DNA from: Oleisolibacter albus
GTDB taxonomy: Bacteria > Pseudomonadota > Alphaproteobacteria > Azospirillales > Azospirillaceae
Assembly: GCF_003336875.1 (NCBI RefSeq)
Contig: NZ_QGNJ01000005.1
Location: 186,001-250,000, forward strand
DNA length: 64,000 nucleotides
Direction of reading: 5' to 3'
Below, piece after piece: positions 1,116 to 48,894 of the stretch; the first letter of the stretch is position 1, and each line of letters opens with the position of its first letter. The translations under genes and the position numbers were made by a program. The notes under the pieces are model-generated. The model did not search any database. It saw nothing but the letters and a program-made list of their open reading frames with translations, and was not told the DNA's origin.

Positions 1116-1550
1116 CTATGGAGACTCGTCGGCAGCCAATACCGGTTCGGCCACGGCTCCGACCATGAATTGGCTGAGACAGAGCAGCAGCGACAGACCG
1201 GCAACGGCCGCCGTCGCCCATAGCGTCCAGGGGGACGGTGCCGATCGTGGCCGACCGGCCTCAAGCGCGACCAGCAGGCGGGGCGGGACCGCTTCCTCCA
1301 GGATCGGATCGTAAAGGGCATGCAGCCCCTGGACCTGGGCCTGATACGCCATGGCCCGCATGGCCTCCTGGGGATCGCGCGCCAGGGTCTGCCCAAGCCG
1401 CGCCAGCCCCGATGACGGCAACTGGCCGTCGATCCAGGCATGCAGGTCGTCCCAGGCATCATCGTCCGGATCACCGGACACCGGCATCGCGTCCCGTCCT
1501 CCGGTTATGACCCGGAGCCCCTGTCCAGGGTCAGGCGGATTCGCGCTCAT
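1116..1550 (-). CDS. Membrane anti-sigma factor of the adjacent ECF sigma
   Basis: The protein has 144 residues. The N-terminal cytosolic part carries a DDLHAWIDGQLP segment typical of the anti-sigma domain that clamps ECF sigma factors. One membrane helix follows at about residues 110-133 (WATAAVAGLSLLLCLSQFMV) and a short periplasmic tail. I see no His-x3-Cys-x2-Cys zinc motif, so it is probably a zinc-free type. The ATG lies inside the last codons of the sigma gene (20-base overlap), which indicates translational coupling. It would hold the sigma factor at the inner membrane until a signal arrives; the signal cannot be read from sequence. Confidence 0.8.
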   Translation of the reverse strand: MSANPPDPGQGLRVITGGRDAMPVSGDPDDDAWDDLHAWIDGQLPSSGLARLGQTLARDPQEAMRAMAYQAQVQGLHALYDPILEEAVPPRLLVALEAGRPRSAPSPWTLWATAAVAGLSLLLCLSQFMVGAVAEPVLAADESP

Positions 1551-44633: not shown

Positions 44634-44819
44634 TGCCATCCCTTTCCGGCCGGGGGCCGCATGACGGCCCCATGCCCGCCTTATAGCATGGGACACCATG
44701 CTGCTGGCGGGCATTTATGGGGCGGCCGGCACGGACCGATGCGCGGACAACCGTTCCCGCAGAACCGGTGTCAGCTGCGAACAGGCAGTTCCCCCCAGGT
44801 TCCACAGCCGGAATTCGCG

Positions 44820-45533
44820 ATGGGAACTTGCGATTCCGCATCGGGCCCGCCAGTGTCCGCCACCGGAACCGATGGGAATGGGGACGGCGTGGACAGGGTC
44901 CGCAGTGCCTTGCTGGCATGGATGACAGGGGTGCTGGACGAGCGCGACTGGACCGCGGCCGCCTGGGCGCGGGCAGCCGACGTCACCCCCACCAATCTGA
45001 CCCGCTTCCTCAAGGATCCCGGCACGGCCAGCCTGCCGAGCGCCGAGACCATCGGCAGGCTGGCCATCGCCGCCGGGCGTGAACCGCGCTTCCTTGATCC
45101 CGTGCCGGCTTCCATCGCCCCGGCCCGGCCCGGTCTCCCGCTGCTGCTGCCGGAGCAGGCGCGCCAGTTGCTGCAACAGACGGACCTGGAGGTGCCCGCC
45201 TTCCTCGACCAGGCGCGCCGGTCCGGCACGCCCTGTCTGCAGCCCGACCCGGCCGCCACGGCGCGCACCTTCGCCATGCGCATCACCTCGCTGCACATGA
45301 ATGCCGGCGGCTGGATGCCGGGCGATTGCGTGGTGCTGGAGCCGGTCGACCGGAACAGTTTGCGCCGCGGGGACGCCATCGTGGTCCTGGCGGGCGATCA
45401 AGTCTGCGGTTTTCGCTGTCATCCGCCCCTGTTGGTGCCGGCCAGCACGGATTCCGCCTGCAGCCCGCTGCCGTTGGACGAGGCTGTCATCGTCGGCCTC
45501 GCGATCCGGCTGCTGCGCGACCTCCGCATCTGA
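44820..45533 (+). CDS. HTH regulator with degenerate S24/LexA-like domain
   Basis: The protein has 237 residues. An N-terminal helix-turn-helix (about 30-85: WARAADVTPTNLTRFLKDP) is followed by a C-terminal S24-like fold (about 150-235: GDCVVLEPVDRNSLRRGDAIVVL). The catalytic Ser of the usual SMxP motif is replaced (AGGWMPGD), so self-cleavage is unlikely. A GTG at 44889 behind GGGGA is an alternative start. The last 115 bases overlap the end of the convergent recD2 gene. It may be a non-cleavable phage-type repressor descendant. Confidence 0.65.
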   Translation: MGTCDSASGPPVSATGTDGNGDGVDRVRSALLAWMTGVLDERDWTAAAWARAADVTPTNLTRFLKDPGTASLPSAETIGRLAIAAGREPRFLDPVPASIAPARPGLPLLLPEQARQLLQQTDLEVPAFLDQARRSGTPCLQPDPAATARTFAMRITSLHMNAGGWMPGDCVVLEPVDRNSLRRGDAIVVLAGDQVCGFRCHPPLLVPASTDSACSPLPLDEAVIVGLAIRLLRDLRI

Positions 45534-47791
45534 CCCTGTGCCTCACGCAGACGCAGGGCCAGGGTGCTGCGCCGCGGTCGGATGCTCCCGTTGGGATGGG
45601 GGGCGTTGGTGATGGCGAGATCCAGGGCCTGACGGTCCCCGACCAGAACAACCAGGCGCCGCCCACGGGTGATCCCGGTATAGAGCAGCGCCCGCTGCAG
45701 CATCGGCCGATGCTGCAGGGTCAATGGAATGATGACAGCCGGGAATTCCAATCCCTGGGCCTTGTGAATGCTGCTGGCATAGGCCAGCACCAGCCGGTCG
45801 AGTTCAGCGTCGGCATAGCGCAGCGTGCCATCATCGAACGCCACCTCGATCGCCCGCTGCGGCACATCGACGGCCACCACCGTGCCGATATCGCCGTTAT
45901 AGACGGCCCGCTCATGGTCGTTTTCGACCTGCATGACCTTGTCGCCGACGCCGAACTGCCAGGGGCCACGGGCGACCCGTGGTCCGGTCGGCGGGTTCAG
46001 AGCCTGCTGCAATGCCAGATTCAAGGCACGGGTACCGAGACTGCCCTTGTTCATGGGACAGAGCACCTGGATGTCGCGCCGTGGATCAAGACCGAAGCGG
46101 CCGGGGATGCGCTCTTTCACCATCTCCAGGATGCGGGCCAGGGTCACATCGGCGGAGCGGGTTTCCAGCATATAGAAATCGCTGTCGGCACCGGGCGGCA
46201 CCGTGTCCGGCCTCTGCCCGTTCCTGATGCGATGGGCGGCAGCGACGATGCGGCTGGCCGCCGCCTGCCGGAACACCTCACGCAGCCGCACCACCGGCAC
46301 GGCCGCCGACGTGATGAGATCGGCCAGCACCTGCCCCGGCCCGACCGACGGCAACTGGTCGGCATCCCCCACCAGCAGCAGGCCGGCCCGCGCGGGCAAG
46401 GCATCCAGCACGGCCGCCAGCAGCCGGACATCCAGCATCGATGCCTCATCCAGCACCAGAAGATCGACATCGAGCGGCCGCTCCGGACCGCGACGGAACG
46501 CGCCCTCCGGCCCCACCTCCAGCAGCCGATGCACGGTGGAGGCATCGTGACCCGTGGCCTGCTGCAGGCGCTTGGCCGACCGGCCGGTCGGTGCCGCCAG
46601 GGCAATGCGCAGTCCCTGCGCCGCCAGTACCCGCACCACCGCCGTCACCAGCACGGTTTTGCCCACGCCCGGCCCGCCGGTGAGGATGGAGAGCTTGCTG
46701 GCGAGAATGGTGGTGAGGGCGGCTGCCTGAGCCGGCGCCAGGACCAGACCCGTCTCCGCCGCCAGCCGGTCCAGGATGGCCGCAATAGCGGGAGAACAGG
46801 CAACCGGCCCCTCCGCCGGCCCGTTGTCCCGTGCGGCGGGATCGGCGTGCAACAGGGAATACCAGGGCGGCGTGCCACAGGCCTGTTCCACCAGCCGCCG
46901 CGCCATCGTCCGCTCCAGACCGTGCAGTCCGGCGGGAAAGACGCAGGCCTCCCCCGCCACCGTCTCACGCACGATCTGGCCGGCCGCGCTCGCCGCGGTC
47001 AGGACCCGGGCCAGCTTCGGTGTCTCCACCGCCAGGAGCATGGCCGCCCGGTCCAACAGATCGGTCTCGGCCAGACCGCACTGGCCCTCGTCCGCCGCCA
47101 GATCCAGCACATGGCGCAGCCCCGCTTCCAGCCGCACCGGGGCATCGGCCGGCAGTCCCAGGGCGCGGGCCAGCGCATCGGCCTGTCCAAAGTGGAACCC
47201 CTCCACCTCGGCCGCGGCGCGGTAGGGGTCCCGGCGCAGCAGGTCCAGCGCACCGGCCCCGTAGGTCTGGTGCAGACGCAGGACCCGATCGGTGGCGACG
47301 CCGTGGCGGGACAGGAACAGCGTCAGGTCGCGCAGAGTGCGTTGACGTTCCCAGGCCTTCAGGATGCTGTCGGCGCGGGCCGGCCCGATGCCGGCAATCT
47401 GGTGCAGACGCCAGGGCTCCTGCTCGATCACGGCCAGCGTCCGGTCACCAAAGGCGTCCACCAGACGGGCGGCATGGATGGGTCCCACCCCCTCCACCAA
47501 GCCGGAGCCGAGATAGCGTTCGATGCCGTCGGCGGTGCTGGGTGGGCTGGCGGCGATGGCGGCGGCCCTGAACTGCAATCCGTAGCGCCCGTCCTGGACC
47601 CAGGCACCGACGGCCCGCACCCGCTCCCCCGGTTCAATCACGGGGCCATGGACGACCAGGGCCACCGGCTTGCGGTGCCCGCCCGCCTTGACCTTCAACA
47701 CGGAAAAGCCCGTCTCGGGATTGCGGAACGTGACCCGTTCCACCTGGCCGGTCAGTTCGTAACGGTCGTCGAATCCGGAATCGAACGGCAT
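45419..47791 (-). CDS. recD2: RecD2-like ATP-dependent DNA helicase
   Basis: The protein has 790 residues. An N-terminal OB-like region (YELTGQVERVTFRNPETGFS), a helix-hairpin-helix array with GVGPIHAARLVDAFG, then SF1B helicase motifs: Walker A GGPGVGKTVLVTAVV, Walker B VLDEASMLD, GDADQLPSVGPG, and the C-terminal ASSIHKAQGLEFP. RecD2 works without RecBC and unwinds 5'-3' in repair. The start lies five bases after the upstream gene. The last 38 residues extend past the normal end and overlap the convergent regulator gene. Confidence 0.88.
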   Translation of the reverse strand: MPFDSGFDDRYELTGQVERVTFRNPETGFSVLKVKAGGHRKPVALVVHGPVIEPGERVRAVGAWVQDGRYGLQFRAAAIAASPPSTADGIERYLGSGLVEGVGPIHAARLVDAFGDRTLAVIEQEPWRLHQIAGIGPARADSILKAWERQRTLRDLTLFLSRHGVATDRVLRLHQTYGAGALDLLRRDPYRAAAEVEGFHFGQADALARALGLPADAPVRLEAGLRHVLDLAADEGQCGLAETDLLDRAAMLLAVETPKLARVLTAASAAGQIVRETVAGEACVFPAGLHGLERTMARRLVEQACGTPPWYSLLHADPAARDNGPAEGPVACSPAIAAILDRLAAETGLVLAPAQAAALTTILASKLSILTGGPGVGKTVLVTAVVRVLAAQGLRIALAAPTGRSAKRLQQATGHDASTVHRLLEVGPEGAFRRGPERPLDVDLLVLDEASMLDVRLLAAVLDALPARAGLLLVGDADQLPSVGPGQVLADLITSAAVPVVRLREVFRQAAASRIVAAAHRIRNGQRPDTVPPGADSDFYMLETRSADVTLARILEMVKERIPGRFGLDPRRDIQVLCPMNKGSLGTRALNLALQQALNPPTGPRVARGPWQFGVGDKVMQVENDHERAVYNGDIGTVVAVDVPQRAIEVAFDDGTLRYADAELDRLVLAYASSIHKAQGLEFPAVIIPLTLQHRPMLQRALLYTGITRGRRLVVLVGDRQALDLAITNAPHPNGSIRPRRSTLALRLREAQGQMRRSRSSRIARPTMTASSNGSGLQAESVLAGTNRGG

Positions 47792-47795
47792 GCGG

Positions 47796-48182
47796 TCACT
47801 CCGCGGCGATGGGCACCGACAGGACAGGGGCGGGAGCGGTGGAGAGGCACCCGGTCTTGGCCGCCGCCGCATCGGCTGGTCGAGCGACTGCCATCGCGGC
47901 GGCGGCAGGCCCCCGGGGCTGGGCGGCGGCAGCCACGGCAGCGGCCCGATCCGCCTGGCGCCGGGCAATCTCCACCGCTGTCAGCACCTCGATATGACGG
48001 GCCTTGGCAGCGGCCAGCAGGGCTTCGCCGGCTGCCACCTCGGCCGCATCGGCCACCTGCAGCCATTGCACCAGAGAGCCCCGCGCCAGGGCCTGGGCGA
48101 TACGGTCGGCCAGGGGACCGCCGGAACTGGTCTTTCCACGCGCCAAAGTCCGCTCTCCATCCGCGGCCGGCCCAGTCGGCAC
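47796..48182 (-). CDS. Small unknown protein, probably co-transcribed with recD2
   Basis: About 128 residues from a GTG; a TTG at 48146 behind GGAGAG gives 116. The first half is helical (LADRIAQALARGSLVQWLQV, AAEVAAGEALLAAAKARHIE), the second half Ala/Pro-rich and probably disordered. No known domain. The stop is four bases before the recD2 start, so the two are one operon, and the upstream LexA boxes would place both under SOS control. A role as a RecD2 partner is inference. Confidence 0.5.
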   Translation of the reverse strand: MPTGPAADGERTLARGKTSSGGPLADRIAQALARGSLVQWLQVADAAEVAAGEALLAAAKARHIEVLTAVEIARRQADRAAAVAAAAQPRGPAAAAMAVARPADAAAAKTGCLSTAPAPVLSVPIAAE

Positions 48183-48191
48183 CGGCCAAAT

Positions 48192-48232
48192 GTTCCCTTT
48201 ATGTTCCAGTATAGCCAGAACACAACAAGAAC
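48192..48232 (-). promoter_or_regulatory. Two opposed LexA (SOS) boxes around a -10 element
   Basis: GTTC-N7-GTTC lies at 48192-48206 on the plus strand, and GAAC-N7-GAAC (the same box inverted) at 48218-48232. The 11 bases between contain TATACT on the minus strand (48213-48208), a good -10. GTTC-N7-GTTC is the alphaproteobacterial LexA site. Two LexA dimers would cover the promoter and start site, predicting tight damage-inducible control of the small gene and recD2. Confidence 0.65.
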
Positions 48233-48285
48233 ATCCAGCGCGAATTCCGGGCAGTCTCCGCCGTCTCCCCGGCGGCGGCGGGGAC

Positions 48286-48795
48286 TCAGCCCGGCCGTCC
48301 GCCGCGGCGCGCAGCCACAAAGGCGGCAGCCTCGGCCCAGGGTTCCAGTCGGAAGAAGCGCTTGGCCAGCCCGGAGGGGGATGGCAGCACGAACAGCACG
48401 CATCCCTCCAGGGTGGCCGGCTGCCGGCCCCAGGCCAGACGGTCCGTGCCGAAGTAGGCCCGGGCCGCGTTCTTGCTGTCGAAGGCGATGGCAGCGGGAC
48501 GACAGGCCCGCATCTTGGTGATGAAGCCGGCCACGTCGTAGGCCGCGGGCGTGAGATCGTGGTCGCAGCCGAATTCGGTCTTGTTGAGGTCGGTGAGGCC
48601 CAGGCCGAACGCAGGAACGGATGCGTAGTCCTCCGGCCGCAACTGGCGCGGCGTCAGCCCGACCTCATGCAGCGTGCGCCAGAAGCGGTTACCGGGATTG
48701 GCATAATAGGCGGCGCGGGCCGCCGATATGCGCGACGGCGCCGTGCCACAGAGGACCAGATCCAGGCCGGGACGCAGGATATCGGGCAGGATCAT
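48286..48795 (-). CDS. Mug/UDG superfamily DNA glycosylase-like protein
   Basis: The protein has 169 residues. It aligns with G/U mismatch glycosylases by LDLVLCGTAPSR at the N-terminus, YANPGNRFWRTLHEVGLTP in the middle and LPSPSGLAKRFF at the end. However the Mug catalytic GINPG is GTAPS here, without the Asn that activates water, so substrate or chemistry may differ. It is 54 bases upstream of the LexA-box region, on the same strand as recD2. The start MILPDIL was chosen. Confidence 0.78.
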   Translation of the reverse strand: MILPDILRPGLDLVLCGTAPSRISAARAAYYANPGNRFWRTLHEVGLTPRQLRPEDYASVPAFGLGLTDLNKTEFGCDHDLTPAAYDVAGFITKMRACRPAAIAFDSKNAARAYFGTDRLAWGRQPATLEGCVLFVLPSPSGLAKRFFRLEPWAEAAAFVAARRGGRPG

Positions 48796-48894
48796 GGGCT
48801 GTATCAGGGCTCTGCCGGCTGGCGGATATGAAAACGGCATCCGCCCCGCAAGGGGGGATGCCGTTCGCTCAGGGCCGGCCGATGAACCGGCGCC

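Follow-up and report, generated by a model that had tools for sequence, protein, structure and literature searches.

A probable LexA-controlled operon of a small gene and recD2, and a phage-type recombination island at the same site in relatives of Oleisolibacter albus

Introduction

What controls recD2 in the alphaproteobacterium Oleisolibacter albus, and what is the small gene directly upstream of it? The question is raised by two GTTC-N7-GTTC sites that face each other at the head of these genes, within a stretch of 64,000 nucleotides (contig NZ_QGNJ01000005.1, positions 186,001 to 250,000) that is referred to here as the window. GTTC-N7-GTTC is the published LexA site of the Alphaproteobacteria, and the shared SOS core of the class consists of lexA, recA, dinB/polB, uvrA, and imuA-imuB-dnaE2, according to the accessible part of a comparative study (PMC3323433). 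The words recD and yqaJ are absent from the accessible running text of that study, figures with gene lists apart; the remark of the initial annotation that recD2 is not among the commonly listed LexA targets of the class agrees with this text, but the text says nothing on the gene lists in the figures. For Bacillus, the accessible part of a paper ties RecD2 to forks, SsbA, and RecA, calls its N-terminal region uncharacterised, and does not contain the word SOS; the partners and regulation of the enzyme are still being worked out even in that organism (PMC12143592).

Here, we describe the operator region, the two genes behind it, and the corresponding loci in relatives. The site is likely to be the LexA operator-promoter of an SOS-inducible operon of the small gene and recD2, derived from a domesticated phage-type recombination island. 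The LexA-boxed island that relatives carry at this site, which the initial annotation missed, is the larger find.

The Operator-Promoter Region of the Window

Box A (48218-48232, minus strand; GTTCTTGTTGTGTTC) and box B (48192-48206, plus strand; GTTCCCTTTATGTTC) are both exact matches to GTTC-N7-GTTC, and the 11 bases between them (48207-48217) contain the hexamer TATACT on the minus strand (48208-48213), a probable -10 element judged by sequence alone. Read along the minus strand, the order is GTTC-N7-GTTC (48232-48218), 4 bases, TATACT (48213-48208), 1 base, and GAAC-N7-GAAC (48206-48192), with box A preceding the -10 by 4 nt on the transcribed side and box B, in the opposed orientation, over the expected transcription start. 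The geometry given in the initial annotation, two opposed sites 11 bases apart that frame a minus-strand TATACT, is exact in coordinates and sequence. A sigma-70 consensus scan of 47700-48400 returned no promoter, which counts against the reading as a LexA-controlled operon, and no good -35 was seen by eye before the small gene. The upstream neighbour of the boxes is mug (48286-48840), a member of the uracil-DNA-glycosylase superfamily (PF03167). No terminator was found by a scan between mug and the boxes, and a GC-rich hairpin considered as a terminator there was rejected as no better than shuffled sequence (z -0.86).

A third perfect site lies on the plus strand at 44788-44802, approximately 86 nt 5' of a regulator gene described below; its spacer is GC-rich and it may be a chance match. 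All three perfect sites of the window are therefore at the recD2 locus, against 0.82 sites expected. Three matches were reached in 7 of 100 shuffles, so a lone GTTC-N7-GTTC match in the window is unremarkable, and the conservation of the box together with the small gene is a stronger test of whether the sites are real than chance counts in the window.

The GTTC-N7-GTTC Motif across the Genome

The genome encodes LexA and contains 96 perfect GTTC-N7-GTTC sites, against 32 for a reversed-pattern control. Five pairs among these 96 have starts at most 40 nt apart, compared with 0.08 expected from random scatter when base composition is ignored. One of the five close pairs covers the lexA promoter itself (L001 1492-1506, minus strand, and 1518-1532, plus strand), with an 11-base gap and boxes that face away from each other. 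The same motif is found at or 5' of lexA, recA, uvrA, imuA, an imuB-like gene, and tag. Twenty site-bearing stretches were picked mainly by AT-rich spacers, a choice that favours real sites, and ten nearby proteins were run against NCBIfam. Seven of the ten are LexA, UvrA (only the N-terminal part lies in the stretch examined), a Tag-type 3-methyladenine glycosylase (E=4e-36, below the model cut-off), a PA0069-family radical SAM protein, ImuA (E=6e-24, below the cut-off), an ImuB-like polymerase with only a weak Pol IV match, and RecA; the other three comprise one glutathione-transferase-like protein and two proteins without a family. The box overlaps the called start at uvrA and at the imuB-like frame. 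As side observations, a perfect box at L004 1753-1767 lies 21 nt 5' of the PA0069-family radical SAM gene, which may be an additional SOS target, and another at L008 1943-1957 lies 20 nt 5' of a frame for 223 aa that matches no NCBIfam family.

The locus thus shares with the alphaproteobacterial LexA regulon the GTTC-N7-GTTC direct repeat at the promoters of repair genes, which is present in this genome at lexA, recA, uvrA, imuA, and tag as well. It differs in its added putative members, which are recD2 with the small gene and, in relatives, an operon of a YqaJ exonuclease and an annealing-type protein.

Conservation of the Box at recD2 Loci

The 700 nt upstream of 84 RecD2-like loci were scanned. 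Eight loci were dropped: L110 duplicates L030, L032 is a remnant, L097 and L109 are incomplete, and L105-L108 are distant helicases with 26-32% identity. The count covers the remaining 76. A perfect box occurs within 700 nt upstream of recD2 at 8 of the 9 loci with the small gene versus 2 of the 67 without it. The ninth small-gene locus (G013) has a one-mismatch GATC-N7-GTTC at about the same place, and the two boxed loci that lack the small gene (L061 and L099) have spacers that are not AT-rich. The Fisher test gives p = 2e-8 for the association of box and small gene, a value that overstates independence as five of the nine loci are from one genus, the Skermanella-type genus g8.

By eye, a -10-like hexamer follows the box after 1 to 4 bases in the window and in six of the eight relatives: TATCTT in G004 (Aerophototrophica crusticola MIMtkB3), TATTCT in G022, TAAACT in G017, TAAGCT in G460 and G461, and TATAAT in G033; no such hexamer was seen behind the box of G026. 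The second box is opposed in the window (gap 11) and in A. crusticola (gap 14), whereas that of G022 is arranged in tandem and the five g8 species have none. By this comparison, the conserved element is a single box just upstream of a -10-like hexamer, and the opposed pair is a local refinement of it. The initial annotation had looked to paired boxes upstream of recD2 in related genomes and had predicted a tight SOS promoter. One box is indeed kept, and LexA-type control of the small gene and recD2 is supported by its conservation, by the same motif at SOS genes, and by the 4-nt spacing of the two genes; the opposed pair, however, recurs in one relative only and is not the conserved element. 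This, together with the mismatch in G013, weakens the case for a LexA operon. An operator at the promoter, a cognate LexA whose known SOS genes carry the same operator, and retention of the operator with the gene in relatives have all been found. A further small gene (fam6; L188 7858-8322 and homologues) is oriented divergently to the promoter of the small gene at six of the nine relative loci (G004, G013, G017, G033, G460, and G461) and may share its LexA operator.

The box pair of the window is palindromic (GTTC-N7-GTTC-N11-GAAC-N7-GAAC) and could be read as one long operator of a repressor other than LexA. A candidate for such a repressor is the product of an island gene that the window retains at 44889-45533 on the plus strand, convergent with recD2; homologues of this regulator (fam3) occur in seven of the nine relative loci, its N-terminus is HTH-like with HTH matches below the Pfam cut-off, and its C-terminal part looks S24-like by eye. 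We consider this very improbable, since five relatives have one non-palindromic box and the boxes of G022 are tandem, the same half-site spacing is found at lexA, recA, uvrA, and imuA, and both G022 and G019 have boxes with no gene for this regulator found within the 19 kb searched.

The Small Gene

The small gene (47796-48182, minus strand) encodes 128 aa from a GTG at 48182, or 116 aa from an alternative TTG start at 48146 that is preceded by GGAG, and its homologues in eight other species lie directly upstream of recD2. Four nucleotides separate its stop at 47796 from the ATG of recD2 at 47791. It is judged to be a real gene. Within genus g8, its dN/dS is 0.06-0.33 in six pairs and it is therefore under purifying selection; among the window genome (G000), G004, and G022, the ratio is 0.46-0.51 with dS of about 1 or above. 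The gene is absent from 9 of the 10 other genomes of the window's genus.

A profile of the core of the protein matched 9 of 82 genomes of the family at E < 1e-20, and all nine matches are directly upstream of a recD2, which supports the association of the small gene with RecD2 suggested in the initial annotation. Two further matches near 5e-4 (G017 and G461) were taken as chance. In samples of the class and phylum, with scoring limited for many genomes to the top 10 to 16 candidates, the profile matched 2 of 385 class genomes (its own and G017) and 1 of 398 phylum genomes (its own). The small protein of one relative had no match in 72,556 plasmid records, and the profile had none in viral contigs, a weak search made with a single short degenerate pattern.

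The small protein probably consists of a helical core and an Ala/Pro-rich tail, which is basic in relatives. AlphaFold models have a helical core and a floppy tail, although they are weak (pTM 0.38 with one and with two sequences). There is no Pfam or NCBIfam match over any cut-off; the best Pfam match, PH_35, is chance-like (E=5e-4 in two of seven members), and the best PDB sequence matches, to SATB1 (E=0.006) and PhnG (E=0.05), were not believed. No family, PDB match, or usable fold ties the small protein to a helicase, which counts against its being an adaptor.

The RecD2 Protein

The product of recD2 (45419-47791, minus strand) is a RecD2/YrrC-type helicase with PF14490, PF23139, PF18335, PF13604, and PF13538 over their cut-offs. 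Its N-terminal OB and HHH domains, helicase motor, and SH3 domain place it in the RecD2 family. The OB, RecD2-type HHH, helicase motor, SH3, and UvrD_C_2 domains are shared with RecD2/YrrC of Bacillus and Deinococcus, whereas the gene is here in an operon behind a small gene and under a LexA-type operator. A known anti-phage defence system was considered with PADLOC and rejected: RecD2 is recognised by models for RecD-type and other helicases, and no model recognises the small protein or the four island proteins compared.

The RecD2 of the window has a long branch in the tree. The fast evolution of both this protein and the small gene of the window, whose dN/dS is near 0.5, is compatible with relaxed constraint and counts against a working LexA operon. 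The RecD2 proteins linked to the small gene do not form one clade in trees, another point against the operon reading, although a single clade is not rejected (p-AU 0.068, 35 of 75 rows).

The Recombination Island in Relatives

Stretches of 18 to 19 kb were compared, eight of them around operons of relatives and one around a related locus, giving nine relative loci. By tblastn, a YqaJ exonuclease (fam0) and an annealing-type protein (fam2) are both present in all nine. In relatives, these two genes belong, with two small genes of no known function (fam10 and fam5), to an island operon that lies near the small-gene/recD2 unit and has its own box. One representative of the exonuclease matches PF09588, and the exonuclease profile has no PDB match. 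The annealing-type protein matches phrog_7838 (E=4e-46), which is labelled exonuclease; the 30 phage records listed include a homologue annotated as a Rad52/22 single-strand annealing protein, another annotated as a putative single strand-annealing protein, and several annotated as exonuclease. The one annealing-type protein tested has no Pfam match, and the profile has no PDB match. An SSB gene is present in the island of the five g8 species, with PF00436 for the one tested. In the five Skermanella-type loci, a HEAT-repeat protein (fam9; L188 11081-12130) is encoded next after recD2; no homologue was found in the remaining four loci or in the window.

The annealing-type protein occurs in 48 of 82 family genomes and 7 of 13 genera, on the replicons of the cell, and shows, in an alignment of nine, 62-97% identity to the first sequence; among 385 class genomes it was found in G017 and, weakly, in G274. 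The island of Azospirillum is on large plasmids or chromids, and that of Azospirillum ramasamyi is annotated as an HTH regulator beside a YqaJ recombinase and three hypotheticals; the stretch on a plasmid of Azospirillum lipoferum 4B bears no annotation. Genus g12 is assigned to Azospirillum as the G439 locus is identical with that of A. ramasamyi, and genus g8 is called Skermanella-type as a locus on contig 5 of G461 overlaps one on a plasmid of S. rosea. Upstream boxes were examined at 30 of the 51 places where the annealing-type protein is encoded. Where the exonuclease gene comes first, a perfect box lies within 250 nt upstream in 25 of 26 places and the remaining one has ATTC-N7-GTTC; where the annealing-type gene comes first, three of four places have a perfect box, and G022 is without.

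The two-component recombination modules of phages are lambda Red, RecET, and relatives. The island resembles them in that a YqaJ exonuclease lies near an annealing-type protein, with SSB too in five species, and in Azospirillum phage Cd a 39% identical homologue of the annealing-type protein adjoins a gene annotated as exonuclease. Unlike these modules, the island resides on cellular replicons (48 of 82 family genomes), is LexA-boxed, and in part of the family is joined to RecD2; its exonuclease and annealing protein have been lost in the window.

Reciprocal Losses at a Shared Site

The window, G004, G022, and G019 have the same flanks, with mug and/or ccoI on one side and fliN on the other, and therefore represent the same site. 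The window keeps the boxes, the small gene, recD2, and the regulator gene, and none of the exonuclease, the annealing-type protein, fam10, or fam5 was found in it. Profiles of the annealing-type protein and the exonuclease also had no match in the window's genome, the exonuclease search being of that genome alone and with no positive control. In G019, the exonuclease and annealing-type protein are kept, the small gene was not found, and only a remnant of recD2 is left; the remnant (L193 9180-9596, in which residues 8-146 align) lies between fam5 and the YqaJ gene. This reciprocal pattern indicates that the two LexA-boxed units can live apart. In the lineage of the window, the RecD2 unit was kept although the exonuclease and annealing protein were lost and is therefore probably of use by itself. 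The idea that the island had taken over from AddAB was rejected: AddB has a match in 81 of the 82 genomes of the family, 80 of these matches being over the cut-off, and neither unit thus makes up for an absent AddAB.

The pattern bears on two other explanations of the locus. LexA control could be real and the small gene still unconnected to the mechanism of RecD2, being an island gene, for example one from the annealing module or one for a DNA-binding regulator, that is first in the operon by coincidence. Such an origin fits a gene found only at the recD2 site, a protein with no sequence or fold link to helicase partners, and RecD2 neighbours that may be of two lineages. It is rather unlikely, as the small gene stays with recD2 in the window where the exonuclease and annealing protein are gone, G019 has no small gene found and most of recD2 gone where those two proteins stay, and the 67 recD2 loci without the small gene are also without a perfect box, bar two. 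The boxes and genes could instead be left over from the early region of an SOS-induced phage and now be idle in a decaying prophage remnant, to which the phage relatives of the exonuclease and annealing-type proteins, the loss of half the island and fast evolution in the window's lineage, and the patchy presence of the small gene in its genus would correspond. This is quite improbable given that the boxes and gene order are kept across four genera, that the small gene is under purifying selection in Skermanella-type species, and that the annealing protein is widespread in the family and well conserved in sequence.

Conclusions

The reading of the site as the LexA operator-promoter of a small gene-recD2 operon rests on the exact boxes around a -10, the same motif at SOS genes, and the box counts at loci with and without the small gene, as well as on the constant position of the small gene beside recD2, the island operons with their own box, and the reciprocal losses between the same flanks. 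In undamaged cells, LexA would be bound to box A beside the -10 and to box B over the start point and would keep RNA polymerase off, box A occluding the promoter and box B presumably strengthening repression. Upon damage, RecA filaments would trigger the self-cleavage of LexA, and the small protein and RecD2 would be made together. RecD2, as a 5'-3' translocase/helicase of forks and single-stranded DNA, would then process stalled forks or gaps, with the small protein most likely in the role of adaptor or loader. Its small size, helical core, and flexible tail would fit a protein that bridges RecD2 and single-stranded DNA or SSB, a guess based on weak models. The island of the family, with a YqaJ exonuclease, a putative Rad52/Sak-type annealing protein, sometimes SSB, two small genes, and an HTH regulator, appears to be phage-derived and LexA-controlled; where the exonuclease and annealing protein are kept, we infer that it may provide a damage-induced, RecA-independent annealing route.

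The locus was not evidently described among the best 8 to 20 of a larger number of matches in searches of the open literature for LexA with RecD2, for RecD2 with SSB, and for RecD2/YqaJ with Skermanella or Aerophototrophica, nor among the matches listed for LexA with YqaJ or annealing proteins, the SOS response of Azospirillum, and the alphaproteobacterial LexA motif. What appears to be new here is a repair operon of LexA type, together with a new family of small proteins and an island of unusual make-up.

We give an even chance to the broader proposal that a phage exonuclease/annealing module has been domesticated in this family (Azospirillum, Skermanella, and kin) as a second, SOS-wired recombination pathway beside AddAB, coupled in part of the family to an SOS-induced RecD2 and a new RecD2-specific adaptor, with the window's genome as a natural experiment in which the RecD2-adaptor unit alone is left. 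A conserved operon in which a damage-type operator precedes a dedicated small gene and recD2 offers a handle on what loads or steers RecD2. The island suggests that phage-type single-strand annealing became a damage-induced host function in much of this soil- and plant-associated family, and its genes could supply native recombineering tools for Azospirillum.
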